This document shows positions 39,544 through 61,522 of a DNA stretch of 64,000 nucleotides, one piece after another. Position numbers and translations under genes: made by a program. Numbering within the stretch: position 1 is the stretch's first letter; each line of letters opens with the position of its first letter. The notes under the pieces were generated by a model that was given only the letters and a program-made list of their open reading frames with translations, was not told the DNA's origin and searched no databases. The stretch covers positions 2,592,001-2,656,000 of the forward strand of contig NZ_CP095740.1 in the NCBI RefSeq assembly GCF_023078455.1, given 5' to 3'. The stretch is from Luteibacter aegosomatis (GTDB lineage: Bacteria > Pseudomonadota > Gammaproteobacteria > Xanthomonadales > Rhodanobacteraceae).

Positions 39544-41064
39544 ATGTCAAAGAACATACTCGTCGTCCTGCCTTACAGCGGGCGCGCCTTCGGCGGCGGC
39601 GTCGCCGTCTTCAATGAGGAGCTGTGCAAAGCGCTCGGCGACGATAACGATGTCAAGCTGCTGACGTTCGATCTGTGGAATTCGACGGACCAGAAGTCGA
39701 TCAATCCGTCTTCCGGGAGCCACAAGGCCGAGATCATCTACATCAACGACGTCACGCGTCGTGAACTGGCCAACCCCAGGGGCGACGACGCGGAGCGTGC
39801 GAAGCTCTACGACGAAATCAACGATCCTTCCATCCTGTTCGCACGGGATTGGGCGAAGGATCTCGGGCCGGAATGGAAGCCCGACATCATCATCGGCCAT
39901 TCGCGCTTTTCCGGTCCCGCCGCCATCCGGATAAAACAGACGCTCTTTCCGAGCGCGTACGTGCAGTATTTCCTCCATTCCTACCCGGTCGAGGGCACCG
40001 TGCTGGTCGGGCACAAGGCCTATGGCGAGGACATCGACCAGCGAACCGCCGCGAAGAAACTCGAGGACGAACGCCATTGGATGGCCCAGGCCGACATGAT
40101 CGTACCCGTGGGCGGTTTGCTGCGGGCCGGTGCGAAGCTTCTCGTCGGTACCCACCCGGTGCGCATCCACGAGTGCATCGGCGGCGCCGAGATCCATGCG
40201 ATCGACGAGCGCAGGGCGCCGGACGACGGCCACTTCCACCTGCTTTTCAACGGCCGCGCCAATGCTCCCATCAAGGGCCTGGACGACATCCTCGTGGCCG
40301 CCGGACGCTTGAACGTCATGGCAGACGAGTACGCGGAGAAGGACAAGGAAAAGGTGAAGCCCTTCCCGACGATCGACATCCACGTGCGGTACTGGCAGGA
40401 GAAGACGATCACCCTTGGCGACGCGAAAAAACCCGGTAACGACCCGACGAACGTCGACGTGAACACCGTCCAGGAGTACGTCGACGGCACGCTCCGCAAG
40501 CTCGACGGCGATAAACGTCCGATCCCCCGCAAGGTGAGCCTGAAGATTCACGGCATATCGGACAACATCATGAGGGACATGCTCGCATCGCATGCGGTGC
40601 TCATGCCGTCCTACATCGAGCACTTCGGCCTCGTGCCCGGCGAGGCGTTGGCGCTCGGCGTGCCCGTACTCATGAACGAAGTGAGCGGCGCGGCGTTTTT
40701 CTTCTCGGACTCCAAGCGCTTCGGCGACGCCGGCAAGGCCTTCGTCGTACCCGATTTCTGCGAGCGGATCAGCCCCTCGCGGCCAGAAAGGTTCCTCGAT
40801 CCGGGCGTCGTTGCCGTGGACGCGTATGAGAACCGCGACGAAGCCTGGGCAAACGCCATGCTGGACCTGGTCGAGCACCTGGGCGAGCGTATCGAACAGG
40901 CCGCGGAGATCGGCCGGATCCTGCAAAAGGACTACACCTGGAAACACTGCGCCAAGGCGCTCGTCGCCGCGGCCGCGATAACCTACGGCAGCTATCCGAT
41001 CACCCAGCAAGGCCCTGGCGGCTCGCTCTGGAACGAGCAAAGCGAGCCGCTGACGACGACGTGA
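39544..41064 (+). CDS. GT4-like glycosyltransferase, orphan
   Basis: 506 aa with a clear GGGAG ribosome site. It is a GT-B enzyme: the first half begins ILVVLPYSGRAFGGGVAVFNEEL with DIIIGHSRFSGPA near residue 115, and the second half has HFHLLFNGRANAPIKGLDDIL near 235 and the donor-binding EHFGLVPGEALALGVPVLMNE near 360 (E-x7-E type). The acceptor is unknown. It has more lysine (EYAEKDKEKVKPF) than neighbouring proteins and a long insertion near residues 265-335. No other glycan genes are adjacent, so it is not part of an evident polysaccharide locus. Confidence 0.8.
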   Translation: MSKNILVVLPYSGRAFGGGVAVFNEELCKALGDDNDVKLLTFDLWNSTDQKSINPSSGSHKAEIIYINDVTRRELANPRGDDAERAKLYDEINDPSILFARDWAKDLGPEWKPDIIIGHSRFSGPAAIRIKQTLFPSAYVQYFLHSYPVEGTVLVGHKAYGEDIDQRTAAKKLEDERHWMAQADMIVPVGGLLRAGAKLLVGTHPVRIHECIGGAEIHAIDERRAPDDGHFHLLFNGRANAPIKGLDDILVAAGRLNVMADEYAEKDKEKVKPFPTIDIHVRYWQEKTITLGDAKKPGNDPTNVDVNTVQEYVDGTLRKLDGDKRPIPRKVSLKIHGISDNIMRDMLASHAVLMPSYIEHFGLVPGEALALGVPVLMNEVSGAAFFFSDSKRFGDAGKAFVVPDFCERISPSRPERFLDPGVVAVDAYENRDEAWANAMLDLVEHLGERIEQAAEIGRILQKDYTWKHCAKALVAAAAITYGSYPITQQGPGGSLWNEQSEPLTTT

Positions 41065-42554: not shown

Positions 42555-44084
42555 ATGATCGATCCCCTCCGACCGAATCCCGCATCGCAGGCGACGCTGA
42601 CCCAGGGCTGGGTGGCGCGCCTTTCCTCGGCCGTGTCGAACGTGCGCGTCGCCGCCGCGCCGACGCCGTCGGTGCGCTTCACCGTCAGCGATGGCACCCC
42701 GCCGGGCGATCCGACGTATGCCGCCGCCCTCGCGGATCCGGCCAAGGCGTATTCGAACGATGCGCTGGCCGCACTGCTCGATCGCAACGCCGATGCCGCC
42801 ACCGCCTCGGGCCAGTTCGCGAGCCTCGGCAAGGCCTTGCTCACGCGCTTCGGCGCCGACGGCGGCGACCTGTCGCTGGCCACGACGCCCGCCGCCACCG
42901 TCGACGGACCGGCACCCGTGCACGCCGGGCCCGATTCGGACGCATCGCTCTCGATACGCACGACGGGCGGCGCCACCGTCAAGGTCACGCTCCATCATGG
43001 CGACGACGGCCTGTCCATCGCGATGAAGAGCGACGGCCCGCTGAGCGACGACGACCGCCAGGCGGTGTCGAAACTCGCCGGTGCCTTCCAGGATGCGCTC
43101 GACGGCCTGGGTGCCTCCCCGCCCCGGCTGGCGCTCGACGGGCTGATGGGCAACGATCCGCGGCTCGCGTCGGTGGACTTCGACGCGAAGGTGGACGATG
43201 GCCAGGGCAAGCCGCAGACCCTCGCATTCCACGCCGGCAGCGACACGCGCAGTCTCAAGGTCGACGGTCCCACGGGCACGCTGAGCGTCGGCATCGACAT
43301 GACGTCGCCCGCCCTGTGGGGAAACCAGGCGCAACGGCAGGCCTCCGTCGCCAACTATCTCGCCCAGATCGACGATGCCGCGCAGCGCGGTCATGGCGAC
43401 GCCTCGCTCATCGCGATGTTCAAGGACGCGTTCGGCCAGATGAACTCGAATTACCCATCCGCGCCGGATGCATCGGCGGTCGGTCCCAAGGTCGGCCAGG
43501 GCGACCACGCGGCCCTGACCGGCCTGGCCGACTTCACGGCATCGTTGAGCCAGGCCACCTCGGCTCCCAACCCGCTGAGATCGAACGAGATGGACACCTT
43601 CAGCTACGACCTCGCGCAGCAGTCGCGCCTGGGCGGCCTCGACGACGCCTCGCGGACCATCGACCAGCACCAGTCGTCGCACCTGAAAGCCAGCTACCAC
43701 CAGGCGCTGTCGGCCGACGCCACCTTGCAGCTGACCGAGGATCCCAACTCGCAGAACTACCTCTATCGGCTGATCGACGACAGCGCGAGCGCCGATACGC
43801 ACATCGCCTACGACAAGGGCGAGCTCGCGGAGGCCTCCGTCACGCGCACGGCGAACCAGAGCACGCACGACATGAAGTACGTGCTCAACCGGCTGGTGGA
43901 AGACACCACCACGCCGTCGACCCGATCACGAACCGACGATCTGCGGGCGCTGATCACCCCGGCGTTGCTCGGGAACGGCCGGTCCGGGTTTTCGCCGGCA
44001 TCGCTCGCCCGTGCCCACGCGGATATCGCGCTGACGTCCGAGCCTTATCTGCTCGGCCCCGCGTCGCCGACCGCCTCGCCGTAG
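42555..44084 (+). CDS. Unrecognised soluble protein (509 aa)
   Basis: The ATG at 42555 follows AGGAAG. No signal peptide and no membrane segment. The N-terminal 130 residues are rich in Ala, Pro, Thr and Asp and look flexible (TPSVRFTVSDGTPPGDPTYA). A more ordered region follows (STHDMKYVLNRLVEDTT near residue 435). I recognise no domain. The N-terminal composition resembles that of secreted effectors, but there is no secretion locus nearby, so this is only a thought. Its stop codon lies within the dispersed palindromic repeat 44077-44104. Confidence 0.65.
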   Translation: MIDPLRPNPASQATLTQGWVARLSSAVSNVRVAAAPTPSVRFTVSDGTPPGDPTYAAALADPAKAYSNDALAALLDRNADAATASGQFASLGKALLTRFGADGGDLSLATTPAATVDGPAPVHAGPDSDASLSIRTTGGATVKVTLHHGDDGLSIAMKSDGPLSDDDRQAVSKLAGAFQDALDGLGASPPRLALDGLMGNDPRLASVDFDAKVDDGQGKPQTLAFHAGSDTRSLKVDGPTGTLSVGIDMTSPALWGNQAQRQASVANYLAQIDDAAQRGHGDASLIAMFKDAFGQMNSNYPSAPDASAVGPKVGQGDHAALTGLADFTASLSQATSAPNPLRSNEMDTFSYDLAQQSRLGGLDDASRTIDQHQSSHLKASYHQALSADATLQLTEDPNSQNYLYRLIDDSASADTHIAYDKGELAEASVTRTANQSTHDMKYVLNRLVEDTTTPSTRSRTDDLRALITPALLGNGRSGFSPASLARAHADIALTSEPYLLGPASPTASP

Positions 44085-47338: not shown

Positions 47339-48436
47339 TCACTCGATCGTCAGCAACGGCCGCTCCGGCGGCCGTTCTTCTATCCGCTCGCCCAGCGCCT
47401 CGATCGCGTCGGACCGGCGGAACGACGCCATGTCCACGCCCTGCACCGCCTCGAGCGGCGCATCCGTGCGTCCCGTCATCAGCATCGCCGTGAGGCAGCG
47501 CAGGATGGGATACTCCGGGGCCATCTCCTCGACGAACAGGAACTGCCCCGCCTGGTTCACTTCCAGGAAGTGATACCCGCCCTCGGTGTCGATCACCAGG
47601 TCGACGGCACCGAAGACCAGGTTCAGTTCGCGCATCAGCGCGCGCAGTTTCGCCTCGACGTCGCCCGGCAACGTGAACGCCTCGGCCAGCACCGCGCCCT
47701 TCTTGGCGTGGTCGCGCCAGTCGACGAAACCTCCCCCGCCCATCCGCTTCGTCAGCTTCAGCGGAAACATCCGCTCGCCCATCACCGTCACGCGCACGTC
47801 CGCGGACTTTTCGATGTAGCGCTGGTAGATGCCCGGGCATACCGCGATGGACTCGGGCGGCAACTCGCTGTGTTCGTCCAGCAACGTGACGCCGACGGCA
47901 TGCATGCGGCCGTTCTCGCTCTCCTCCCAGTGGTGGACGAGAAAGCTCTTGAAGATGATCCTGCCCCAACGACGGCGCAGCGCATCCACCTGCGCGGCGT
48001 CGGTGGTCACGATCGTGTCGGGAATGGGAATGCCCACCCGGCGGCATGCCTCCAGCTGCACGATCTTGTACTCGGCGCGCTGGGCGGCGGGAAAGGGGTT
48101 GATCCACAACGCGTCGCCGAACGTCTGCGGAAGGTTGAACAGGCCCCGCTGGAAGAGCTTCCATTCCCACTCGGCGAACGTGCGGTCCGCATCGGCGCAG
48201 TGCGGCGTCGGGTCGTGCAGGCGACGGTTCCACACCGCGCTGATGCCGTCGCCGCCGCGCAACGAATCCTCGAGCGATACCTCGTCGTCGGAAACACGGA
48301 AGGTGTAGTGCACGCCGGGCCGCGCCTGCAACGAAGGCATCCACAGCGGGCTTACGCCCTGTCTTTCGAGCGCCCAGGCGAGGGCACTGGCGTGCGGATC
48401 GGTGTCGGGCGCGAGGATGAGGGGGCGTTTGCTCAC
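47339..48436 (-). CDS. Graspetide (omega-ester RiPP) ATP-grasp ligase
   Basis: 365 aa from a GTG at 48436. The sequence resembles the MvdD/MvdC ligases of microviridin-type graspetides: N-terminal LILAPDTDPHASALAWALER, VWNRRLHDPTP near residue 68, INPFPAAQRAEYKIVQLEACRRVG near 112, RIIFKSFLVHHWEE (ATP lysine) near 158, YQRYIEKSADVRVTVMG near 205, the KLTKRMGGGGFVDWR loop, and the metal-binding FLEVNQAGQFLFVEEMAPEY near 295. These enzymes phosphorylate Asp/Glu side chains of a precursor and close ester or amide rings. The precursor gene is 69 bp upstream on the same strand. There is only one ligase and no adjacent protease or transporter. Confidence 0.85.
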   Translation of the reverse strand: MSKRPLILAPDTDPHASALAWALERQGVSPLWMPSLQARPGVHYTFRVSDDEVSLEDSLRGGDGISAVWNRRLHDPTPHCADADRTFAEWEWKLFQRGLFNLPQTFGDALWINPFPAAQRAEYKIVQLEACRRVGIPIPDTIVTTDAAQVDALRRRWGRIIFKSFLVHHWEESENGRMHAVGVTLLDEHSELPPESIAVCPGIYQRYIEKSADVRVTVMGERMFPLKLTKRMGGGGFVDWRDHAKKGAVLAEAFTLPGDVEAKLRALMRELNLVFGAVDLVIDTEGGYHFLEVNQAGQFLFVEEMAPEYPILRCLTAMLMTGRTDAPLEAVQGVDMASFRRSDAIEALGERIEERPPERPLLTIE

Positions 48437-48465
48437 GTAGGGATTCCGTCTGCCTGGGGATCGAA

Positions 48466-48493
48466 GGACACGCGGCTGTCGCGCCGCGTGTCC
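48466..48493 (-). promoter_or_regulatory. Intercistronic hairpin between graspetide precursor and ligase
   Basis: GGACACGCGGC (48466-48476) and GCCGCGTGTCC (48483-48493) are perfect 11-bp arms around a 6-nt loop. It lies 12 bp after the precursor stop and 29 bp before the ligase start. There is no T run on the minus strand, so partial termination or protection of the precursor mRNA is more likely than a full stop. It would make more precursor than enzyme. Confidence 0.65.
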
Positions 48494-48505
48494 GAGATCG
48501 ATGTA

Positions 48506-48661
48506 TCAGCCCAGGCCGCCCGGGAATTCCGGCTCGGGACGGTCGTCGGTGTTGACCGTGAGGAACAGGCCCTTGTTGTCCTGGTCCTTGGTGAGTTCGG
48601 TGACGTCCGAGGCGTTGATGCGGGCGAAGGCGCGGGTCGTGGTCGTTTCTTGGGACTGCAT
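48506..48661 (-). CDS. Graspetide precursor peptide
   Basis: 51 aa; AGGAG lies about 9 nt before the ATG at 48661. Residues 1-30 form the leader, with TTRAFARINASDV placed like the ligase-binding helix (PFFARFL-type) of microviridin leaders. The C-terminal part is FLTVNTDDRPEPEFPGGLG (residues 33-51): Thr35 and Thr38 are possible ester donors, Lys25 or Lys30 possible amide donors, and Asp39, Asp40, Glu43 and Glu45 possible acceptors. It has no TxKxPSD motif, so it is not a classic microviridin. The identification rests on the adjacent ligase and this composition. Confidence 0.8.
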   Translation of the reverse strand: MQSQETTTTRAFARINASDVTELTKDQDNKGLFLTVNTDDRPEPEFPGGLG

Positions 48662-48745
48662 GGGACAGATCTCCTGAAGGTTGATCGCACGTTGGATGGC
48701 GCACGGTGTGCTCCCCACGCCGTCACGGCGCACGGAGACCATCCG

Positions 48746-48791
48746 ATACTAAGCATCCGGACATGGGGCGCCCGACGTAACGGCCGTTACG
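48746..48791 (-). promoter_or_regulatory. Putative promoter and 16-bp palindrome of the graspetide locus
   Basis: On the minus strand a -10-like TAGTAT (48746-48751) stands about 85 bp before the precursor ATG, without a good -35. Centred about 45 bp upstream of the expected start site is the perfect 16-bp palindrome CGTAACGGCCGTTACG (48776-48791). A missing -35 plus a dyad at this distance suggests an activator-dependent promoter. Confidence 0.5.
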
Positions 48792-48895: not shown

Positions 48896-48983
48896 CAAGG
48901 CGCTGGGCTCCTGCCTGCGCAGGAACGACGTGAGGATGTTCCATGCGGACAGATAATCGTGTAGCAAGTCGTTCCTACGCAGG
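48896..48983. repeat. REP-like inverted repeat, left part, interrupted by the IS
   Basis: The left arm is 48896-48929. The right arm begins at 48968 and is cut at 48983 by the insertion sequence. It resumes at 50259-50276 after the duplicated CGCAGG. Joined, the right arm is 34 bp and matches the reverse complement of the left arm at 32 of 34 positions. The arms contain GTCGTTCCT and CAGGCAGGA strings; a 38-bp loop lies between them. The element looks like a proteobacterial REPIN-type hairpin. Confidence 0.82.
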
Positions 48984-50252
48984 TGTATAGACCGGACACA
49001 TAGCTGACAGGTGTGCCAGGACATGGTTTACACCTCGACCGCCAACCTGTGGCGGCCAGAGGCCCATCCCATGCCCTGGAAGGAAGCGTCAGTCATGAGT
49101 TTGCGTGCCGAGTTTCTCGCCCTGGCCCGGCGCCCGGACCAGCCCGTGGCGCCGCTGTGCCGGCGGTTCGGGATCAGCCGGACGACCGGCTATAAATGGC
49201 TCCGCCGGGAGGCGGCCGAGGAGCCGCTGGCGGACCGGTCACGTCGTCCGCACCGCAGTCCTGGGCAGACGGCGGCCGAGGTCCAAGCCCGCATCGTGGC
49301 GCTACGGCAGACCTACCCGCATTGGGGCGGGCGCAAGCTGGCCAAGGTGCTGGAACGGGAAGGTTGCGATGCGCCCGCGCCCAGCACGATCACCCACATC
49401 CTGCGTCGCCATGGCCTGCTGTGGCGCCCCACCGAGGCGGTGATCACGCCCTGGCAGCGCTTCGAGCACAGCGCGCCTAACGATCTGTGGCAGATGGACT
49501 TCAAGGGATCGGTGCCGGTGGGGGCGGGCCAGTGCGATCCGTTGACCGTGCTCGACGATCACTCCCGTTTCAACCTGGTGCTGGCCAACAACGCCGATAA
49601 GACAGGCCTGACGGTACGACGCCTGCTCACGGCGGCGTTTCGTCGCTACGGGCTGCCGTTGCGCATGAACATGGACAACGGCACGCCGTGGGGCGTGGGC
49701 AACGGCCCGGCACGCCATCTGTCGACCTTGTCGGTGTGGCTGGTGGAGCTGGGTATCCACGTGAGTTTCAGCCGTCCGTTCCATCCCCAGACCAACGGCA
49801 AGGACGAGCGTTTCCACCGAAGCCTGGACGTGGAGGTGCTGCGCGGCCGGGCTTTCCTCAACCTCAGGGAGCTGGGCCTGGCGCTGGATCACTGGCGGGA
49901 GATCTACAACCACGTGCGTCCGCACGAAGGCATCGGCATGGTCACGCCGGTGCCGCGTTACCGGATCAGTCCGCGCGCCTTTCCCGAGCGGATCGCGGCG
50001 TTTGAGTACGGCCCGGATGACTTGCGGTTACATGTCGACCAGCGAGGTCGAACCCAGCTGCTGGGCCATCCTCTGACGGTGTCGTCGGCCCTGAAGGCCC
50101 AGATCATCGCCGCCCGCCCGCAGGACGGGCAGGACGGCATCTATGACCTGTATTTCCGTCATCACTGGCTCGACACCGTCAACCTGCGAGACCTGGACTA
50201 AAGTGTCCACCATGTCCTGGCACACCTGTTCACCATGTGCCCGGTCTGTACA
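48984..50252 (+). mobile_element. IS481-family insertion sequence, intact
   Basis: About 1,269 bp. Both ends start TGTA: the left end (48984-49033) and the reverse complement of the right end (50203-50252) agree at 42 of 50 positions, with the block ACAGGTGTGCCAGGACATGG perfectly shared. The flanks repeat CGCAGG (48978-48983 and 50253-50258), a 6-bp target duplication, typical of recent transposition. One full-length transposase gene fills the inside. Confidence 0.92.
49071..50201 (+). CDS. IS481-family transposase
   Basis: 376 aa from the ATG at 49071; longer reading from 49011 would start inside the terminal repeat. An N-terminal helix-turn-helix (APLCRRFGISRTTGYKWLRR near residue 25) precedes the integrase-type catalytic core. 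The DDE residues are in WQMDFKG, NMDNGTPWG and NGKDERFHR. No frameshift or stop is seen, so it is probably active. It ends at 50201, 1 bp before the right terminal repeat. Confidence 0.93.
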   Translation: MPWKEASVMSLRAEFLALARRPDQPVAPLCRRFGISRTTGYKWLRREAAEEPLADRSRRPHRSPGQTAAEVQARIVALRQTYPHWGGRKLAKVLEREGCDAPAPSTITHILRRHGLLWRPTEAVITPWQRFEHSAPNDLWQMDFKGSVPVGAGQCDPLTVLDDHSRFNLVLANNADKTGLTVRRLLTAAFRRYGLPLRMNMDNGTPWGVGNGPARHLSTLSVWLVELGIHVSFSRPFHPQTNGKDERFHRSLDVEVLRGRAFLNLRELGLALDHWREIYNHVRPHEGIGMVTPVPRYRISPRAFPERIAAFEYGPDDLRLHVDQRGRTQLLGHPLTVSSALKAQIIAARPQDGQDGIYDLYFRHHWLDTVNLRDLD

Positions 50253-50258
50253 CGCAGG

Positions 50259-50276
50259 CAGGAACCCAGCGCCTTG
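50259..50276. repeat. REP-like inverted repeat, right-arm remainder beyond the IS
   Basis: CAGGAACCCAGCGCCTTG completes the right arm started at 48968-48983. It pairs with 48896-48913, the beginning of the left arm. Confidence 0.82.
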
Positions 50277-50307: not shown

Positions 50308-51583
50308 CTAAACGACTACCGGCAAACTCATCCTCGCCACCGCGCCCCGCCCATCCTCACGCGGATGCAACTCCAGCGTCCCGTCCTGCGCCTCCACGAT
50401 CTGCCGCGACAAGGCCAACCCGATGCCCGCCCCTTGAGGTTTGGTGGTGAAGAACGGCACGAACAGGTTGCCGCTCGAGGGCAAGCCCGGTCCGAGGTCG
50501 CTCACTTCGATGAGCACGCTCCTTCCCTGCCGCCGCCAGCCGAGCAGCACCTCGTTGTCGCCGCCCGCCTCCACCGCATTGCGCAGCAGGTTGATGAGCA
50601 CCTGCTCCAGTTGGTCCGGATCGCCCATCAGTTCGAGGGAATCGCCCGGCAGCACGCGAATGCGCGCATCGTCGAATAGCCTCACCACACGCTCGGCGAG
50701 CGCAGCTACACCGACCCGGACGCGCTGCGGCGGCGGCAGGCGGGCAAGTCGCGCATAGTGTCCCACGAAACGCTGCAAGGCGGCGCTTCGCTGGCCGATC
50801 ACCTCCAAGCCGTGGCGCAGGTCGGCATCGAGTTCGTCGCCGAGCGGCTGGCCCGCCCCCGGCAGCAAACCATGCAGGGTTTCCACCATGGAACCGATCG
50901 GCGCCATGGAGTTGGTGATCTCGTGGCTGAGCACGCGCAGCAACCGCCGAAAGGCTTGGGCTTCTTCCTCGCGCAACGCGCGCTCCATCGGCTGCACCAC
51001 CAGCAGGCGCCCTTCCTGGCTGCGGCTGCGCAGCGAGGCGTGCCCCACCTGCCAGCGACCCGACTGCCCGGCGAACCGCCGCGCGACGATCTCGCCCGAC
51101 GGCACCTCCAGCAACGACGCAAGCCCCAACGCCCCGGCATCGGCACCCAGCAACTCCACCGCGGACCGCCCCAGCAGGCGCTCGCCAGCCGGATTGACCA
51201 GGCGCAGGCGGCCGTCGCGCTCGAAGGCGAATACGGCGCCGTCCAGCGCCGCCAACGTCTTGCTCAGCAGTTGCACCGATTCCTGCAACCCGCGCTGCTC
51301 ATCCTGCAAGCGCACGGCCAGTTCGTTGAAGCGGCGCGCGATGTCGCCGAAATCGTCGGTACGCTCCGCTCCGGAGGCACGCACGCCGTAGTCGCCTTCA
51401 CGCAAGGCCTCGAGCAGGTTCGCCACGGTCTGCAGACGGCTTGGTCGCTCGCCGACGAAACGCCATGCCACGACGGTGAGCCATACCACCAGCGTCGATA
51501 ACGCCACCGCTTCGGCGGGACGTGGCGAGCCGGCGAGCAACACTCCCGCCAGCGCCAGCAAGGCCGGCGCGGCGACGATGAGG

Positions 51584-51597
<14 letters not shown>
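50308..51597 (-). CDS. NtrB-type sensor histidine kinase
   Basis: 429 aa from the ATG at 51597, overlapping the end of the regulator gene by 14 bp. Two transmembrane segments near residues 5-25 and 30-50 with almost no periplasmic loop are followed by a HAMP linker, a PAS domain (ALDGAVFAFERDGRLRLVNPAGERLLG near 115) and the phospho-acceptor helix RVLSHEITNSMAPIGSMVE near 220. The HATPase domain shows NLLRNAVEA, DLGPGLPSSG and TTKPQGAGIGLALS. The lack of a large outer domain suggests sensing within the membrane or cytoplasm, perhaps of transporter activity, as it is the last gene of the exporter operon. Confidence 0.9.
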
Positions 51598-52972
<1,375 letters not shown>

Positions 52973-52992
52973 GGCTTCCAGTCTAGACGCCG

Positions 52993-55434
52993 TCAGTCGA
53001 CGCGCAAAGCCTGCATCGGCCGCACGCGCGCCGCACGCCACGCCGGCGGCAGGCTCGCCAGCAGGCCGGAAAGCCCGAGGGTAAGCAGAACCGCGCCGAT
53101 GGCCAGCGGATCGAGGGCATCGATGCCGAAAAGGAAACCGGCCAGCAGGCGCGACAGCGCCATGGCCGTCGCCAGCCCGATCGCCAGGCCCAGGCCCACC
53201 TGCACCGCCGCCGAGCGAATCACGGTCATCAGCAGGCGGTTGCGGGTGGCACCGAGCGCCGCGCGTACGCCGTAGTCGTGCCGATGCGCCGTCACAGCCA
53301 CCGACATCACCGCGTACAGGCCGACGCAGGCCAGCACGAGGGCCATGCCCGCGAAGAGGCCGACGAGCAGCAGGTTGAGGCGTTGCTCGGTGGTCGTGGA
53401 CGCCACCACCGATTCGAGTGTCTGCACGTTGGAGATGGGCTGGCCCGGCGCCGCCTGGTTGACCGCGTCGCGCAGCGTGGCCTCGCCCAGGACCGTGCCC
53501 GGATGCAATCGAACGGCGAAGGAAAAGCCGCCGAACTGACGGAGGAACGACCATACACCCGGCGGCATCTGCATGCGCGGCGTGTAGAAAACCGGTGGCG
53601 CGGGCTTGGCGGGACCGTACTGACGCACGTCGCCGACCACGCCCACCACCCGCATGCCCACGTTGCTCTCACCGCCGATATGCAACGTGACGATCCGCCC
53701 CAACGGACTCGATGCCCCGAAATAGCGCCGGGCGAACGACGTGCTGACCACGCAGACCGGATCGGCGCCCGCGACGTCGGTCGCCGCGATCATGCGACCC
53801 GCAAGGAGCGGAATGCCCACCGTCTCCAGAAATCCCGGGCTGGTGATCCGGTACTGGACGCTGACCATGCCACCGTCGGGAAGGACGACCGGCCAGTTGA
53901 GCTGGTCCGCCGTGGGCAGCGTGGTGGATTCGCCGGCGGACTCCACCTCGGGCAGGCGGCGCAGGCGTTCCAGGACGTCGTGGGTCAGCGAGGCGACGTC
54001 GGTGGCCGTCACGTAGCGTTGCTTCACCGGCGACAGCGCAAACGTCGTGACGTTGCGGGTGCTGAAGCCCATCGGTACCGATTCGAGTTCATACAAGGTA
54101 CGCGTGAACAAGGCCGCGCCCACCAGCAGCACGACCGCCACGGCCACCTGCGCCACGACCAGCCACCGCCCCACCCGGCCGTCCTCGCGACTGATACCGC
54201 CGCGGCCCCCACCGACGAGTTCACCGCGCCAGTCGCGACGCCGCCCGCGAAGCACGGCGAGCACGGTCGCTCCCGTGGCGGCGACCAGGCCGGCCAGCGT
54301 GGCGAACGCCACGCTCATGCCGGTCAACGTCACCGGCTCGCCACGCGTCCATTCGGGCGGAACGAAGCCGCCGACGAGTCGCAAGCCGATCCATGCCAGC
54401 AGCAGGCCGCATGCCGCGCCCAGCAGGCCGACCAGAAGGCCTTCGCCCAAGGCAGGCAGGCTCAGCCGTCCGGTCGATGAACCGAGCGCGGCGCGCACCG
54501 CGTACGCATGCGTGCGCGACAACGAGCGCATCAGGATGAGGCTGGCGAGGTTGATGATGCCGATCAGCATCACGCATGCCGCCGCGCCGAGGAACAGCCA
54601 GATCGTGCGACCGCTATTTCCGACGAACACGCTCCGCATGATCGGAATCGCCCGTGGCGGTTCCTGGGCGAGTCGTTGGCGCGCTTTCTCCGGATCGATC
54701 ACCGAGGCCAGCAGAAGTGGGGTGGCGATGCTCGCCGTCGCCGCGGATACGCCCGCCACCGTCGCGTCGGGTCTCATCCGCCCGAGAACGAGCTGGTTCT
54801 CGTTCATGTCGTCGGATGCGGGGTCGGGCTGCATGGCGACCACCAGATCGATGGCATCGGGCCATCGAAAGGCCGCGGGCAGCACGCCGACGATCTGCAT
54901 GCCCTTGCCCTCGACTTCCAGCAGGCGCCCCACCGCCGTGGGATCGCCGCCGAAGCGGGTTTTCCAGAACCCGTACGAAAGGAGCACCGCCCCGGGACCA
55001 TGGGGAAGGCTTTCCGCTTCGTTGAAGTTGCGGCCGACGGCCATCGGCAGTCCCAGCGTTTCGAGGAAGCCGCGGTCGGCCTTCAGGGCCGCCACCACAT
55101 GGGGGCGTCCATCCAGTACGACGTTCTCTGATTGCACGCCGGCCATCGCGATGCCCGCGGACTCGAGCAAGGGCATGGCCTTGAGCGGCCGGTACAAAGC
55201 GATGCCCGCGGCGTTCCGGTCCTCGCCCATCATCGTGCCCAGGGTCACCAGCCGCTCGGCATGCGGGAATGGCAATGGTTTCAGCAACGCCTGGTCGAGC
55301 AGCGCGAACATGGCGGTGACCGTCGCCACGCCGAGCGCCAGGGTGAACGTCGCCAGCAGAAGGAACGCGGGGCGGCGGAACAGGCCGCGCCACGATTGGC
55401 ACAGCTCGGCGAATACGACCGACATCGCGATCAT
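52993..55434 (-). CDS. MacB/FtsX-type ABC permease, copy B
   Basis: 813 aa. It begins with a helix LFRRPAFLLLATFTLALGVATVTAMFALLDQ, then a periplasmic MacB core (ERLVTLGTMMGEDRN), three FtsX helices, a second periplasmic region and a final three-helix FtsX domain (YAVMSVAVTAHRHDYGVRAALGATRNRLL). This two-unit plan (8 membrane segments) is that of the long acidobacterial/xanthomonad MacB-type permeases. It is a tandem paralogue of the next gene upstream, with 29 bp between them. Alternative ATG 9 bp further in. Confidence 0.9.
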   Translation of the reverse strand: MIAMSVVFAELCQSWRGLFRRPAFLLLATFTLALGVATVTAMFALLDQALLKPLPFPHAERLVTLGTMMGEDRNAAGIALYRPLKAMPLLESAGIAMAGVQSENVVLDGRPHVVAALKADRGFLETLGLPMAVGRNFNEAESLPHGPGAVLLSYGFWKTRFGGDPTAVGRLLEVEGKGMQIVGVLPAAFRWPDAIDLVVAMQPDPASDDMNENQLVLGRMRPDATVAGVSAATASIATPLLLASVIDPEKARQRLAQEPPRAIPIMRSVFVGNSGRTIWLFLGAAACVMLIGIINLASLILMRSLSRTHAYAVRAALGSSTGRLSLPALGEGLLVGLLGAACGLLLAWIGLRLVGGFVPPEWTRGEPVTLTGMSVAFATLAGLVAATGATVLAVLRGRRRDWRGELVGGGRGGISREDGRVGRWLVVAQVAVAVVLLVGAALFTRTLYELESVPMGFSTRNVTTFALSPVKQRYVTATDVASLTHDVLERLRRLPEVESAGESTTLPTADQLNWPVVLPDGGMVSVQYRITSPGFLETVGIPLLAGRMIAATDVAGADPVCVVSTSFARRYFGASSPLGRIVTLHIGGESNVGMRVVGVVGDVRQYGPAKPAPPVFYTPRMQMPPGVWSFLRQFGGFSFAVRLHPGTVLGEATLRDAVNQAAPGQPISNVQTLESVVASTTTEQRLNLLLVGLFAGMALVLACVGLYAVMSVAVTAHRHDYGVRAALGATRNRLLMTVIRSAAVQVGLGLAIGLATAMALSRLLAGFLFGIDALDPLAIGAVLLTLGLSGLLASLPPAWRAARVRPMQALRVD

Positions 55435-55463
55435 GAGGTCTTCCTATCGGATAAGGGCATGGA

Positions 55464-57908
55464 TCAATCCACGCGCAGGGCCTGCATGGGTTTCACCCGC
55501 GCGGCACGCCAAGCCGGTGGCAGGCTCGCGAGGAGCCCACAGGTACCCAGGACGAGCAGGACCGAGCCGATGGCCAGCGGATCGAAGGCCTTGACGCCGA
55601 AAAGGAAACTCGCGAGCAAGCGCGACACCGCCATGGCCAGGGCAAGGCCGATGGCCAGGCCCAGGCCGACCTGGACCGATGCCGAACGCAGCACCGTGAG
55701 CAGCAGGCGCCGCCGGGTCGCGCCGAGCGCGGCGCGCACGCCATAGTCGTGGCGATGGGCCGCCACGCCGACCGACATGACCGCGTAGAGTCCCACCGAG
55801 GCGAGCAGCAGGGCCAGTCCGGCGAACAGGCCCACCAGCATCAGGTTGAGGCGCTGCGCGTCCGTCGTCGAGGCGACCACCGCGTCGAGCGTCCTCACGT
55901 TCGAGATCGGCTGGCCGGGCGCCACGTCCTCGACGGCCTTGCGCAACGCACCGTCGTCGAGGCCCACGCCGGGGTGCAGGCGAAGCGCGAAACTCAGCGG
56001 ACCGAAGTCGCGCAGCGTGGCCCAGATGGGGGGAGGCACCTGGTTCAACGCCGTATAGACGATGGGTGGGGCCATTTCCGCCGGACCGAATTGCCGGACG
56101 TCACCGACGACGCCGACGATGCGCAAGGCCAGGGTCTTTTCGCCGGCCGGCATCGTCACGGCATGTCCGATGGCATCGCCGCCGAAGTACTCGCGCGCGA
56201 AGCTCGCGCTCACCACGCAGACGGGATCGGCCGTGGAGGCGTCCGTTTCGGCGATGCCCCTGCCCGCCAGCAGCGGGATGCCCACCGCATCGAGAAACCC
56301 CGGGCTGACGATCCGGTACTGGCCCGCGATCATCGAATGGTTCGGCAGCACGATCGGCCAGTTGAGCTGCGTGCCCGTGGGCAGGTTCGTGGACGCGCCC
56401 GCGGCCTCGACGCCGGGCGAACGCAGCAACCGGTCGATCACGCCCCGCGCCAGCACCGCCACGTCGGCGGACGTCGGGTAGCGCGCCTTGACCGGCGAGA
56501 GGGTGAAGGTGGTCACGCCATGGCTGGCGAACCCCATCGGCACGGATTGCAGCTCGCGCAACGTGCGGGTGAACAGGGCCGCTCCGACCAGCAGCACCAC
56601 CGCCACCGCGATCTGCGCCACCACCAGCACCCGCCCGAGGCGTCCGTCTTCACGGCTCAGGCCGCCACGGCCACCACCTACCAGTTGGCTGCGCCATTCC
56701 CGCCGACGCCCACGCACGACGGCCAGCAGGGTCGCGGCCATGGCGGCTCCGATGCCGGCGATCCCGGCGAAGGCGACGCTCGTGCCGGTGAGCGACACGT
56801 CTTCGCCGCGAAGCCAGGCGGGTGGCACGAACCCGCCGAGCAGGCGCAGGCCGATCCAGGCGAACACCAGCCCTCCCGCCGCGCCGACGATGCCGATGAG
56901 CAGGCCTTCGGCGAACGCGGGAAGGCTCAGGCGTCCCATCGACGATCCCAGCGCGGCCCGCACGGCGCTCGCGTGGGTCCGCGACAGCGAACGGAGGAAC
57001 ACCAGTCCGGCGAGATTGACGACGGCGATCGACAGCACGCACACCGCCGCACCGAGGAACAGCCACAAGGCATTTCCCGTCGTGCTGGCGAAGATGCTTC
57101 GAGTGATGGGTATCGCGGCAGGCGGTTGCGAGTTGGCGAGGGCTTCGCGCATCCGCTCCGGGTTGGATGACGATGCGATGAGGATCGACGTCATCACGCT
57201 CGCCGTTTCCGCCGATGCGCCGGCGACGGTGGCACCCGGTTTCAGGCGCGCCACGATCATCTGGTTCATCGACGAATCGGTCGACGCGAGGTCCGGCTGC
57301 ATCGAGACGATGAGGTCGACATGTTGCGGCCACCGAAACGTCTTCGGCAGCACGCCCACGATCTGCATGCCCTTCCCTTCGACCTGCAACGTACGCCCCA
57401 CCACCGAGGGATCGGCGCGGAAGCGGCTGCGCCAGAACGCATCCGACAGGATCACCGCCCTGGGGCCGTTCGGACGGTTTTCCGCGTCGTCGAAATTGCG
57501 CCCGATCGCCATCGGCAGGCCGAAGGTCGCCACGAAATCACGGTCGGCGCGCCATGCGGTCGCCACTTCGGCGTGGTCGTCGGGGGCGATATTGATGTCC
57601 GCGGACCCTCCCATGGCCATCCCCGCCGATTCCACCGACGAGATCGCTTTCAGGCGAGCGTAGTAGACCGGCGCCACCGAATTCATGCTCGGATTCTCGC
57701 TGTCGACGAAACCGAGCGTGACCAGCCTGTCCGCATGGGGAAACGGCAGCGGTTGCAGCAGCGCCTTGTCCAGCAGCGCGAACATCGCGGTGACCGCGCC
57801 CAGGCCGAGCGCGAGGGTGAATGTCGCCAGCAGGAAGAAGGCGGGGCGGCGCAGCAGTCCTCGCCATGCCTGGCGGAACTCGCCCACCGCGACGGCGGCG
57901 GTCGTCAT
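55464..57908 (-). CDS. MacB/FtsX-type ABC permease, copy A
   Basis: 814 aa from the ATG at 57908, which overlaps the ATPase stop (ATGA). Same domain order as copy B: WRGLLRRPAFFLLATFTLALGLGAVTAMFALLDK, periplasmic MacB core, FtsX unit (ASAVRAALGSSMGRLSLPAFAEGLLIG near residue 345), second periplasmic region and last FtsX unit ending LPPAWRAARVKPMQALRVD, identical or almost so to copy B. The two permeases plausibly form a heterodimer driven by one ATPase. Substrate unknown. Confidence 0.9.
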   Translation of the reverse strand: MTTAAVAVGEFRQAWRGLLRRPAFFLLATFTLALGLGAVTAMFALLDKALLQPLPFPHADRLVTLGFVDSENPSMNSVAPVYYARLKAISSVESAGMAMGGSADINIAPDDHAEVATAWRADRDFVATFGLPMAIGRNFDDAENRPNGPRAVILSDAFWRSRFRADPSVVGRTLQVEGKGMQIVGVLPKTFRWPQHVDLIVSMQPDLASTDSSMNQMIVARLKPGATVAGASAETASVMTSILIASSSNPERMREALANSQPPAAIPITRSIFASTTGNALWLFLGAAVCVLSIAVVNLAGLVFLRSLSRTHASAVRAALGSSMGRLSLPAFAEGLLIGIVGAAGGLVFAWIGLRLLGGFVPPAWLRGEDVSLTGTSVAFAGIAGIGAAMAATLLAVVRGRRREWRSQLVGGGRGGLSREDGRLGRVLVVAQIAVAVVLLVGAALFTRTLRELQSVPMGFASHGVTTFTLSPVKARYPTSADVAVLARGVIDRLLRSPGVEAAGASTNLPTGTQLNWPIVLPNHSMIAGQYRIVSPGFLDAVGIPLLAGRGIAETDASTADPVCVVSASFAREYFGGDAIGHAVTMPAGEKTLALRIVGVVGDVRQFGPAEMAPPIVYTALNQVPPPIWATLRDFGPLSFALRLHPGVGLDDGALRKAVEDVAPGQPISNVRTLDAVVASTTDAQRLNLMLVGLFAGLALLLASVGLYAVMSVGVAAHRHDYGVRAALGATRRRLLLTVLRSASVQVGLGLAIGLALAMAVSRLLASFLFGVKAFDPLAIGSVLLVLGTCGLLASLPPAWRAARVKPMQALRVD

Positions 57909-58654
57909 GTGTTCGATTCCTGCAGCAGCGGCATCGGCTTGTCGTCTTCGTTGCGCATCCGTTCGAAGGTGTCTTCGTCGACGATGCGTCCGTCGAGCAT
58001 GTGCACCACGCGATGGGCGCGACGCGCGAACGCCGGATCGTGGGTGACCATGCACAAGGTGGCGCCGTCGCGGTTGAGCTGTTCGAGCAGTTGCATCACC
58101 GCCTCGCCGTTGCGCGAATCGAGGTTGCCCGAGGGTTCGTCGGCGAGCAGGATGCGCGGCTCGCCGACCAGCGCGCGCGCCACGGCGACGCGCTGCTGCT
58201 GGCCGCCCGAAAGCTGCCCCGGATAGTGGCGATGGCGATGGCTCATGCCGACCTGATCGAGCACGTCGCGCACGCGGCGTTGGGCCACGTCGCGACGATA
58301 GTCGCTGCGAAAGGTCAGCGGCAGCGCGACGTTCTCCTCCACCGTGAGGTCGGCGATGAGGTTGAAGGCCTGGAAGATGAAGCCGATCTTCGCGTTGCGC
58401 ACCTGGGCCTGGCTGCGCAGGTCCAGTCCCGCCACGTCGGCACCGTCGAGCAGGAAACGCCCCGACGACGGCGAATCGAGCAGGCCCAGCATCGACAGCA
58501 GCGTGGACTTGCCGCAACCCGAGGGGCCGGTGATCGCCACGAAGTCGCCCGCGGCGATGTCCAGCGACACGCCGGACAACGCGTGGGTCTCCACTTCGTC
58601 GGTATGGAACACCTTCCCCAGCCCTTCCAGGCGGATCAGCGGCTCATGGTTCAT
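57905..58654 (-). CDS. ABC transporter ATP-binding protein (MacB/LolD type)
   Basis: 249 aa from the ATG at 58654, chosen for the GGAGAA ribosome site; a start 5 codons upstream lacks one. Walker A GPSGCGKS near residue 42, Q-loop FQAFN near 94, signature LSGGQQQRVAVARAL near 148, Walker B ILLADEPSGNLD near 168 and switch H in VTHD near 204 are all intact. It powers the two permeases whose genes follow at once. Confidence 0.95.
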   Translation of the reverse strand: MNHEPLIRLEGLGKVFHTDEVETHALSGVSLDIAAGDFVAITGPSGCGKSTLLSMLGLLDSPSSGRFLLDGADVAGLDLRSQAQVRNAKIGFIFQAFNLIADLTVEENVALPLTFRSDYRRDVAQRRVRDVLDQVGMSHRHRHYPGQLSGGQQQRVAVARALVGEPRILLADEPSGNLDSRNGEAVMQLLEQLNRDGATLCMVTHDPAFARRAHRVVHMLDGRIVDEDTFERMRNEDDKPMPLLQESNT

Positions 58655-58670
58655 GCGACGGTTCTCCATA

Positions 58671-59921
58671 TCAGCGTAAACGTAGGGTGTCATAGCCATT
58701 CCACTGGCTGGTATCCGAAAGGATGGCCTGGTCGCCCGCATGCAGGCCCTCCAGCACCACGGCCCGGTCGCTCGACATGGCGCCGAAGCGGACGGGCACG
58801 CGATGGGCGGTGTCTTCGCCCGCATGCACCACGAACAGGCTGCCCGTGGTATCCGGTGCCGCGCCGTAGGGGCGGCCGATGTTCACGACGTGAGGCAGCG
58901 TACCCAGGACGACCCGCCCGTCCACCGACAGATCGGGCCTCGCTCCGGCGGGAAGCGGTTTGTCGAAGGCCACGTCGACGGCGACGCCACCGTTGCGCAC
59001 GGAGGGATCCACGCGGATCAGCCGCCCGCGCGCCATGCCGTTGCGCGTGTCCACGTCCACGGGCAGGTCGAGCGTGAGGCTGCTGGCCAGGGTCTCCGGC
59101 ACCAGGAGCCGGGCAATGAGTTCGTTCGGCCGGGCGACCCGCGCCAGCTTGGCGCCGGCGGCGATCTGCTGGCCGGGTTCGACGTCCACCTGCTGGAGAA
59201 TGCCGTCGATGCCGGCGCGCACGCTCATCGATTCCAGCTGTTGGCGAGCGATCTCCAGCGCGCTGGCCGCCTCGTCGCGCTTGGCTTCTTCCGAGCGCAT
59301 CTGCGCGACGATGTTGTTGCGGATGGCCGCCACGCGTTGCGCCTGGATATCCAGGCGCTTGCGGTCCTGCTCCACGGTGATCTGGCTCTGCTTGACCTCG
59401 ATGGCGGCGGAGGCGCCCTTGTCGAACGCGCGCTCGTTGGCGATACGCTTGATGTCCGCCGTGAGCAGGTCGGATTCCGCCTGGGTGCGGACAGCCTGCG
59501 CATCGAGCAACTGGGACTGCAGCAAGGCGCGCTGCGCCGACACGGCGGCCTCGGCACCGGCCAGGGCCGCCTTCTGCTTTTCGAAGTTCGCCTGCAATTC
59601 GGGATTGACCAGTTGCAGGATCGCGGTATCCGCCGCGACCCGCGCGCCGGGCTCGACGATCACCTGCTGCACGGTGGCCGTGGCACCGGCCGTGATCCAG
59701 CGGATCTGTCTCGGTATGAGCGTGCCGTTGGCGCGGATCTCGCGCTTCATCTCGCCCAGTTGCGCGGTGCCGATCCAGACGTCGGAGCGGGTGACCGACG
59801 GAGCGGCCTTGCCGAGGGCCAGGGAGGCGGCGAGCACGACGACGAGGGCGGCGGTGCCGCCGGCGAGCCAGAGGGTTCTCGGCCGTCGGAGGATGGGGGT
59901 GGAGGGTTTGGCGATGTCCAT
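58671..59921 (-). CDS. HlyD/MacA-type membrane-fusion adaptor
   Basis: 416 aa. One N-terminal membrane helix (LWLAGGTAALVVVLAASLAL) is followed by a barrel-sandwich half (IRWITAGATATVQQVIVEPGARVAAD), a long coiled coil from about 105 to 235 (LQANFEKQKAALAGAEAAVS), the second lipoyl half (AGIDGILQQVDVEPGQQIAAGAKLARV) and a beta-barrel. It links the inner-membrane ABC pump to the outer membrane. First gene of the six-gene operon; the ATPase gene starts 16 bp after its stop. Confidence 0.9.
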   Translation of the reverse strand: MDIAKPSTPILRRPRTLWLAGGTAALVVVLAASLALGKAAPSVTRSDVWIGTAQLGEMKREIRANGTLIPRQIRWITAGATATVQQVIVEPGARVAADTAILQLVNPELQANFEKQKAALAGAEAAVSAQRALLQSQLLDAQAVRTQAESDLLTADIKRIANERAFDKGASAAIEVKQSQITVEQDRKRLDIQAQRVAAIRNNIVAQMRSEEAKRDEAASALEIARQQLESMSVRAGIDGILQQVDVEPGQQIAAGAKLARVARPNELIARLLVPETLASSLTLDLPVDVDTRNGMARGRLIRVDPSVRNGGVAVDVAFDKPLPAGARPDLSVDGRVVLGTLPHVVNIGRPYGAAPDTTGSLFVVHAGEDTAHRVPVRFGAMSSDRAVVLEGLHAGDQAILSDTSQWNGYDTLRLR

Positions 59922-60037: not shown

Positions 60038-61522
60038 TCAGCCTTTCGCGCTACGCAGCGGCACGTCGCGCATGCCCCAGGCCAGCACGAAGGCGATGGC
60101 GATCACGGCGGCGGCCACGTGGTAGACCGTATGCAGCGACGAGCCGAACGCGTGGACGTAGGCCGTGTGCTGCGCCGGGGGCAGCTTGTTCAACGCATCG
60201 GGCCCCATGCCATGCGGCCCCTGCGTGGCCGCGCCGCCCAACCGCGAAGCCAGCCCGTCGCTGAAGATCGCTCCGAACACCGACACGCCGAGCGATCCGC
60301 CGATGGAACGGAACAGGGTCACGCCGGAGGTGGCCACGCCGAGCAGGCGCATGTCCACGCTGTTCTGGGTGGCGAGGATCAGCACCTGCATCACCATGCC
60401 CAGGCCGAGCCCGAGCAGCGCAGCGTAGGCGTAGATCACGGCCAGAGGCGTGTCGTCGCGTAGCGTGCCGAGCAGCAGCAGCGCGATCGTGGCGATGAAC
60501 GTGCCGACGATGGGAAACATGCGATAGCGACCGATGCGGCTGATCACGCGGCCGCTCACCATGGAACTCACCAGCACGCCGCCCATCAGAGGCAGCAGCT
60601 GCAAGCCCGCTCCCGTGGGCGACACGCCCTTGACCACCTGGAGGTACAACGGAAGGAACGTGGTGGAGCCGAACAAGGCCGCGCCGACGAACAGGCCGAT
60701 GAGGCAACTGAGAAGGAAGGTGCGATGGCGGAACAACCCCAACGGAATGATGGGTTCTTCGGCCACGCTCTCCTCGTAGACGAAACCGACCGCCCCCACC
60801 ACGGCGAAGCCGAGGATGAACCACAACTGCGGCGACGACCACGGCAACACCGTGCCGCCCTCGGTGGTGAACAGGATGAGGCAGCTCAGGGCGAGCGTGA
60901 GCCACCCGGCGCCCCAATAGTCGATGCGGTGCTTCACGTGGCGCACGTGGGGATGGAAGGCCGTGGCGATCACCAGGAGCGAGACCACGCCCAGCGGCAG
61001 GTTCACGTAGAAGATCCAGCGCCACGAGAGGTGGTCGACGAGGAATCCGCCGAGCAGCGGGCCGACCACCGTTGCCAGCCCGTAGGTGCCGACGAACAGG
61101 CCCTGGTAACGCCCGCGTTCGGCGGGAGGGATCACGTCGCCGATGGCGGCCATGGTCACCACCAGCAGGCCGCCGCCGCCGAGCCCCTGCAACGCGCGCA
61201 TGAGGATCAGCTGGGTCATGTCCTGCGCCATGCCGCAGAGCATGGAGCCGGCCAGGAAAATGCCGATGGCGACCTGCAACACCACCTTGCGGCCGTAGAG
61301 GTCGCCGAACTTGCCGTACAGCGGCACGACCACCGTGGAGGTCAGCAGGTAGGAGGTGACCACCCACGAGAGCTGGTCGAAGCCCCCCAGCTCCCCGACG
61401 ATGGTCGGCAAGGCAGTGGAGACGATGGTCTGGTCGAGCGCGGCCAGCAGCATGGCCAGCATCAGCGCGGGGAAAAGCAGGCGTAGCGACGGCGTCGCGG
61501 TCGCGGGCGTAGGAGTGGACAC
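60038..61522 (-). CDS. Drug-efflux MFS transporter (DHA2/EmrB-QacA type)
   Basis: 494 aa from a GTG at 61522. About 14 hydrophobic helices; LDQTIVSTALPTIVGELGG near residue 30 is the DHA2 helix-1 signature, GKFGDLYGRKVVL near 70 the MFS loop motif, and GPLLGGFLVDHLSWRWIFYVNLPLG near 155 motif C plus the following helix. It exports hydrophobic compounds by proton exchange. It is divergent from a TetR gene across a 115-bp AT-rich region and is very likely repressed by its product. Confidence 0.92.
   Translation of the reverse strand: MSTPTPATATPSLRLLFPALMLAMLLAALDQTIVSTALPTIVGELGGFDQLSWVVTSYLLTSTVVVPLYGKFGDLYGRKVVLQVAIGIFLAGSMLCGMAQDMTQLILMRALQGLGGGGLLVVTMAAIGDVIPPAERGRYQGLFVGTYGLATVVGPLLGGFLVDHLSWRWIFYVNLPLGVVSLLVIATAFHPHVRHVKHRIDYWGAGWLTLALSCLILFTTEGGTVLPWSSPQLWFILGFAVVGAVGFVYEESVAEEPIIPLGLFRHRTFLLSCLIGLFVGAALFGSTTFLPLYLQVVKGVSPTGAGLQLLPLMGGVLVSSMVSGRVISRIGRYRMFPIVGTFIATIALLLLGTLRDDTPLAVIYAYAALLGLGLGMVMQVLILATQNSVDMRLLGVATSGVTLFRSIGGSLGVSVFGAIFSDGLASRLGGAATQGPHGMGPDALNKLPPAQHTAYVHAFGSSLHTVYHVAAAVIAIAFVLAWGMRDVPLRSAKG

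Follow-up and report, generated by a model that had tools for sequence, protein, structure and literature searches.

The window, a stretch of 64,000 nucleotides of DNA, carries a short open reading frame followed by the gene of a single ATP-grasp ligase. Does this pair of genes produce a graspetide, which residues of the short peptide would then close its rings, and has such a ring pattern been described before? The preliminary description had proposed that the locus is a minimal graspetide locus whose core is single and not repeated, and the comparison of genomes reported below supports it, the pair being conserved at 15 loci, one of them with a truncated ligase. Taken as a whole, the best explanation is that the locus makes a two-ring graspetide, a reading that we hold with high confidence. 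EPE is used here as the label of this precursor and ligase family, which has the core E43-P44-E45.

Table 1. Features of the EPE locus and of its surroundings, in window coordinates.
Feature	Position	Strand	Remarks
Predicted graspetide precursor	48506-48661	minus	51 aa, MQSQETTTTRAFARINASDVTELTKDQDNKGLFLTVNTDDRPEPEFPGGLG
Shine-Dalgarno-like AGGAGA of the precursor	48670..48675	minus	8 nt 5' of the ATG, direct reading
Predicted graspetide synthetase (ATP-grasp ligase)	47339-48436	minus	365 aa, GTG start
Intercistronic hairpin	48466..48493	minus	11-bp stem GGACACGCGGC/GCCGCGTGTCC, loop 6
TAGTAT, candidate -10 element	48746..48751	minus	90 nt upstream of the precursor ATG
IS481-family element	48971-50265		transposase 49011-50201, 63-nt imperfect terminal repeats
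MacB-type ABC operon with two-component system	50308-59921	minus	upstream of the precursor, beyond IS481
MFS pump	60038-61522	minus	upstream of the precursor

A conserved precursor and ligase pair

Direct reading found both frames where the preliminary description had placed them, with a gap of 69 nt from the precursor stop to the ligase start. The leader of the precursor contains the recognition motif R10-A-F-A-R14, and its core reads F33-L-T35-V-N-T38-D-D-R-P-E43-P-E45-FPGGLG. The precursors of its relatives are preceded by AGGAG or AGGGAG, as read from their sequences.

Some relative (E ≤ 1e-20) was present in 43 of 233 genomes of the same family, and 14 of the 233, the window's included, possess a full-length ligase (at least 57% identity) together with the precursor. 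A precursor frame that was not conserved beside orthologous ligases had been named beforehand as grounds for giving up the proposal; the frame adjoins all 14 full-length orthologs, that of the window among them. The precursor is also kept at a fifteenth locus, in G116, where the ligase is truncated near a contig end and a transposase-like sequence begins, so that 15/15 EPE loci carry it. This last locus (L056, at the end of contig 17 of G116) has an EPE precursor and a hairpin, and its ligase frame stops after about 93 residues.

When the 233 family genomes were searched with a precursor profile of 21 rows, 15 matches were obtained at E < 1e-20, all of them at EPE loci, and four weak ones (7e-6 to 0.007) lay beside related ligases with other cores. 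Non-synonymous differences were rarer than synonymous ones in 8/8 pairs of precursors (pN 0.008-0.273 against pS 0.096-0.67), pairs that are not all independent, as some loci were used twice. The reading frame of the precursor is thus confirmed as real and conserved above chance. The gene pair, its conservation, the family of the enzyme and the conserved residues are direct observations.

By genus, the loci are distributed as follows: six with a full-length ligase, plus G116, among the 23 genomes of the window's own genus (g1), five in g8 (which includes Dyella mobilis, D. flava and D. acidiphila), two in g19 (which includes Oleiagrimonas citrea) and one in g20. The nearest named relatives are from Luteibacter (87% in Luteibacter sp. 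PPL201, 86% in a Luteibacter MAG), so that the window probably comes from this genus. Among 398 genomes from the order, every match of at least 57% identity falls in the same family, and a search of plasmids gave a single match, of 34% identity, in Bradyrhizobium.

The ligase is of the graspetide synthetase lineage

The best NCBI profile for the ligase is TIGR04187 (8.7e-49), yet the match stays far below the family cut-off. The preliminary description had called the enzyme MvdD-like, a name that goes too far, as it scores 123 bits on the MvdD-family profile of NCBI against a cut-off of 475. Compared by sequence with MdnC, it gives 1.8e-24. With a structural model of the ligase, the top nine entries are graspetide synthetases, all ranking above every RimK. 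Pfam returned no match for the ligase. The window's genome holds a single ligase of this family at E ≤ 0.001. Judged by profile, sequence and model, the ligase is a graspetide synthetase of the MdnB/MdnC/PsnB/CdnC lineage.

Where names are given in the source records, they are mostly "hypothetical", "ATP-grasp" or RimK-type. A RimK-like enzyme would add glutamates or another amino acid to a small protein, without cyclisation. We regard this as extremely improbable here: the graspetide profiles score far higher, nine graspetide synthetase entries outrank every RimK, and the locus resembles other graspetide loci in its gene pair, in its leader motif and in its conserved Thr/Glu core.

Two threonines and two glutamates remain as predicted ring partners

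In the 21-row precursor alignment, which amounts to 19 different rows since P0003 and P0004 repeat G113, the invariant residues are R10, F12, A13, R14, A17, F33, T38, E43, P44 and E45, and M1, A11, V20, L34, T35 and P42 are nearly so. T35 is replaced by Ser in G070 and G141. The G116 precursor, added after the alignment, keeps all invariant residues except R10, which is His. The pattern F[LI][TS]xxT, then 3-5 residues, then EPE, fits 20/20 distinct precursors.

According to the preliminary description, the ring pattern could not be read, and Asp39, Asp40 or a Lys figured among the candidate partners. The alignment narrows this choice. Asp39 and Asp40 are not conserved, no core Lys is found in the 20 distinct precursors, and in 6/20 (G080, G076, G070, G068, G074, P0006) the two Glu of EPE are the only acids from Phe33 onwards. 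With just these two Glu in six cores, and no Lys in any, neither Asp39 nor Asp40 nor a Lys can be an obligatory partner, which leaves Thr35 and Thr38 with Glu43 and Glu45. Two Thr/Ser donors and two Glu acceptors would therefore give two macrolactones. Some precursors have an extra Thr (TITT, TTHT) or Asp (TIDT, DPDRP) in or before the loop, so that a third ring or other partners are possible in those rows; by sequence, acids in the linker before Phe33 are possible partners as well.

The leader motif across EPE precursors is R-[A/T]-F-A-R. The leader signature Phhx(1,2)h was found in 0/20 of them: its Pro is Ala or Thr, and the FAR part is kept. In the text of a survey of 2022, which counts 174 precursor families and relies on the signatures Phhx(1,2)h and GG, the former occurs in about half of the precursors (PMC8939145), so its absence does not exclude membership of the graspetides. 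A GG motif is present in the leader of 4/20 EPE precursors, just before LFLT. With no Pro signature, GG mostly absent and the NCBI cut-offs missed, such loci are easily left unannotated.

A clan of synthetases with different cores

In a tree of 51 ligases, the 14 EPE rows form one clade (support 100/99). The EPE, THAT, SPAD and TTG core types are each confined to a single clade; two changes are required for the SG type and six for the unassigned rows, all with labels assigned by eye from the precursors. The other branches of this clan have similar leaders (RPFAR, RPLAR, RPFGR) and cores of the forms HFLTMITMT...SPADGGLDYD, ...SG...DxPD, ...TTG...DEKP and GG-TTHATGPNGDDPxDP.

THAT-type precursors belong to Lysobacter and relatives. 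From the string THAT and the genus, this type is probably the published group 16, thatisin, which reportedly contains two interlocking macrolactones. Like EPE, it has a short single-core precursor with several Thr and with acidic residues next to Pro. The two differ in the core (TTHATGPNGDDPxDP against T/S-x-x-T ... E-P-E) and in the GG site, which THAT precursors carry and EPE precursors mostly lack. THAT ligases are 37-41% identical to that of the window, and up to 45% to an EPE ligase.

Further graspetide-like precursor types were seen beside related ligases in genomes of the same family, at L022, L058-L062, L064, L024-L026, L029, L030 and L032, and also at L067, L068, L063 and L065. Some genomes have several graspetide-like loci (G070 has four ligase matches and G232 has five), and at L051 and L066 two THAT-type precursors stand in tandem before one ligase.

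Three other known systems can be compared with EPE. In plesiocin (group 2), a single ligase forms two Thr-Glu esters in each core, which has the motif TTxxxxEE. The rings of plesiocin are described in the text of the 2026 survey as a "ring within ring" (PMC13097080). Its inner Thr-Glu spacing is similar to that of EPE; in contrast, plesiocin has repeats, and EPE has a single core, as the preliminary description had noted for the window, and TTxxxxEE matches 0/20 precursors. Microviridin (group 1, MdnA/MdnB/MdnC) uses two ligases and an acetyltransferase on a TxKxPSD core that acquires a lactam, whereas the EPE pair has one ligase and no core Lys, and TxKxPSD matches 0/20 precursors, again in line with the earlier statement. 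Fuscimiditide and the graspimiditides (group 13) have a short leader element, RPFG, comparable to the R[A/T]FAR of EPE; in the graspimiditide precursor ThfA, this tetrapeptide was identified as the one that serves for recognition (PMC13003496). They are described as having two nested cross-links (PMC12291112, PMC13003496), and differ by a larger loop and by a methyltransferase giving an aspartimide; beside the EPE pair, no third gene at a constant place was seen among the clusters listed.

Has the EPE family been classified already? The text of the 2026 survey adds 19 new groups to 24 earlier ones, lists more than 20,000 graspetides, and uses a network threshold of alignment score 70 (PMC13097080). 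Scores calculated in the manner of such networks were 63-78 between EPE and THAT (median 71, 84 pairs) and 117-214 within EPE (91 pairs). Since the former straddle the threshold, the EPE clade could join the THAT cluster or sit next to it. It is an even call whether the family already lies in a published group, for example as an outlier of group 16 or among the 19 groups of 2026: the straddling scores and the size of that list speak for it, and against it stand the EPE core, the general lack of GG and the missing peptidase-exporter, all of which differ from the THAT type, as well as the absence of Luteibacter, Dyella and Rhodanobacter from the main texts of both surveys (PMC8939145, PMC13097080).

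The EPE locus is a sound but rather unremarkable representative of the graspetides, a class already known. In the texts consulted, precursor plus synthetase alone is already described for groups 27, 28 and 35 (PMC13097080), clusters from Xanthomonas and from Lysobacter are mentioned as having distinct core patterns (PMC8939145), and a group 19 graspetide with three linkages was obtained from Lysobacter capsici (PMC9576775). No Luteibacter or Dyella graspetide is named in the titles or abstracts found. An unspecified "RiPP-like" cluster is reported in five L. mycovicinus strains in the text consulted (PMC11165876), and could be an EPE-type locus. In the literature examined, with the surveys taken by their main texts, the EPE ring-forming pattern was not found. 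What EPE adds is the conserved core pattern T/S-x-x-T-x(3-5)-E-P-E. With five or more core types spread over a single synthetase tree, the clan lends itself to the questions of how a scaffold changes its ring pattern, and why some members adjoin a peptidase-exporter and others do not. Core switching in the clan and the missing exporter are of more interest than the EPE locus alone.

Proposed product

We infer the chemistry, the number and connectivity of the rings, and the role of the hairpin. The synthetase would bind the leader at R-[A/T]-F-A-R and use ATP to phosphorylate Glu43 and Glu45 on their side-chain carboxylates. Attack by the hydroxyl of Thr38 and by that of Thr35 (a Ser in two relatives) would then form two macrolactones, with a mass change of -36 Da. 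Leader removal and export, if any, would be ensured by genes elsewhere in the genome. By analogy with the graspetide class, the product may be a protease inhibitor. A literature search found no mass spectrum or activity for the EPE family.

For the connectivity, we prefer a hairpin arrangement, in which a Thr38-Glu43 ring would be nested inside a Thr35-Glu45 ring. Nearly as likely, if somewhat below an even chance in our estimate, is an interlocked pair, Thr35-Glu43 and Thr38-Glu45. Interlocking would agree with what is said of thatisin, probably the product of THAT, the nearest branch that may have a characterised product, the ligases of which reach 45% identity with EPE ligases. However, core types differ strongly within the clan, so connectivity need not carry over, and the inner Thr-Glu spacing of 3-5 residues in EPE resembles that of the plesiocin motif, which speaks against interlocking.

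A hairpin between the two genes

The hairpin of the window has a z of -3.7 for the 69-nt gap. In 15/15 EPE loci, the gap between the genes (55-76 nt) contains a hairpin whose stem has 9 bp or more (z from -1.8 to -6.3); stem sequences vary among the loci and pairing is retained. Outside EPE, the 24 other Rhodanobacteraceae rows of the clan have a stem of at least 10 bp (z -1.5 to -6.3), mostly in longer gaps, and among the six THAT rows such a stem was found in two, with z no lower than -2.0; these stem counts are raw. T-rich stretches follow some of the hairpins (best in G080), and none follows that of the window. A terminator scan of the window called none, the hairpin being without a T-run. 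The hairpin is likely a partial (leaky) terminator or a stabiliser of the mRNA 3' end, which would give more precursor than ligase. In the proposed scheme, its probable effect is that the precursor mRNA outnumbers that of the ligase.

Upstream of the precursor, a box TAGTATCG was found in 9/15 loci, and its close variants TAGACTCG, TAGACTTG and TAGAGTCG in five more, a pattern that was picked by eye and then counted. The box lies 62-92 nt upstream of the precursor, and there is none in G114. A sigma-70 scan of the window found nothing. The idea of a structured 5' leader, running from the TAGTAT box to the ATG, was set aside, as folds differ between loci, and two sub-threshold Rfam matches were taken as chance.

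Export, leader removal and neighbouring genes

In 6/6 genomes, the THAT ligase has a C39 peptidase domain close by, at a distance of about 2.5 kb or less, and group 16 (thatisin) frequently has an NHLM-type peptidase transporter. In contrast, none was found within 100 kb of the EPE ligase in 13 genomes, those of all EPE loci except G113 and G116. Nor was a C39 domain found within 30 kb on the same contig for the other clan ligases (0/15 genomes, some contigs being shorter). As an internal control, distant graspetide-like ligases (31-35%) had a C39 domain within about 2.5 kb in five of eight genomes (present in G108, G073, G056, G232 and G070, absent in G450, G460 and G456). Thus, with C39 in 0/13 and GG in 4/20, the EPE locus is without a neighbouring processing exporter. 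Two open frames with C39 domains (722 and 368 aa) exist elsewhere in the window's genome, more than 1 Mb away, and could act on the EPE peptide in trans.

A bolder proposal, which we consider rather unlikely, is that the whole Rhodanobacteraceae branch of the clan works without a GG site or a neighbouring peptidase-exporter, and that its peptides act inside the producer cell. They would for instance regulate a protease of that cell, the hairpin would set the dose, and core types would switch by clade, with the leader and the two-gene layout staying the same.

The preliminary description had reported no transporter nearby, which is literally untrue: the MacB operon and the MFS pump are both located upstream (Table 1). 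The operon comprises an HlyD-type protein, an ATPase, two MacB/FtsX permeases, a sigma-54-type response regulator and a histidine kinase; the regulator was compared as a whole open frame, including upstream residues that are probably not translated. Could the peptide have a dedicated transporter here, be it the MacB-type exporter together with the two-component system or the MFS pump? The ABC and MFS genes are all on the same strand, upstream, in the window. In G113, a histidine kinase gene 74% identical is directly upstream of the precursor (there is no IS there), and an MFS gene 70-80% identical is directly upstream in G107, G108 and G117. However, these last three loci share further upstream genes, as in extended synteny, and the Dyella, Oleiagrimonas and g20 loci have only distant matches (25-31%), at few loci and in other places. 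The MFS gene is moreover found in 19 of the 23 genomes of the genus, 13 of them without an EPE ligase, is far from the locus in G114 and about 36 kb away in G116. A dedicated transporter among these genes is therefore quite improbable: in most relatives the EPE locus is not accompanied by their close orthologs, and on present evidence the MacB operon and the MFS pump are neighbours, not partners.

Neighbouring frames were compared in two ways at 14 EPE loci. Those of at least 90 aa were each matched against all others across about 20 kb (4.6 kb for G113); the second comparison took frames of 25-150 aa in the region that reaches 2.5 kb before and 4 kb after the ligase start. Among the clusters listed, the only ones present in most loci were the ligase, the precursor and their out-of-frame or antisense shadows; the precursor cluster counted 13/14 in the second comparison, the length limit having dropped one. 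Other clusters spanning genera, among the 26 listed for frames of at least 90 aa, concern three to six loci at changing distances, and the 25-150 aa comparison also gave one low-complexity and one three-locus cluster. No third gene at a constant place beside the EPE pair was seen in the clusters listed for the 14 loci. A TonB receptor was rejected as a partner: it has a match at E ≤ 1e-100 in 23/23 genomes of the genus, but close copies (at least 86%) were limited to the window, G117, G107, G105 and G113, where the copy is in pieces. Of these, the window and G113 alone have it next to the EPE locus.

The IS481 transposase scores 257 bits on profile NF033577 (cut-off 224). The element sits between the histidine kinase operon and the precursor, and is absent from that place in G113. 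Short inverted repeats with CCTGCGCAGGAACGACG-like arms flank it (48896-48983 and 50253-50276) and are reminiscent of REP-type elements. Elsewhere in the window, a 509-aa frame at 42555-44084 has no Pfam or NCBIfam match at E ≤ 0.1, and a glycosyltransferase of the GT4-conflict family (PF20706, 1.7e-48) is encoded at 39544-41064.
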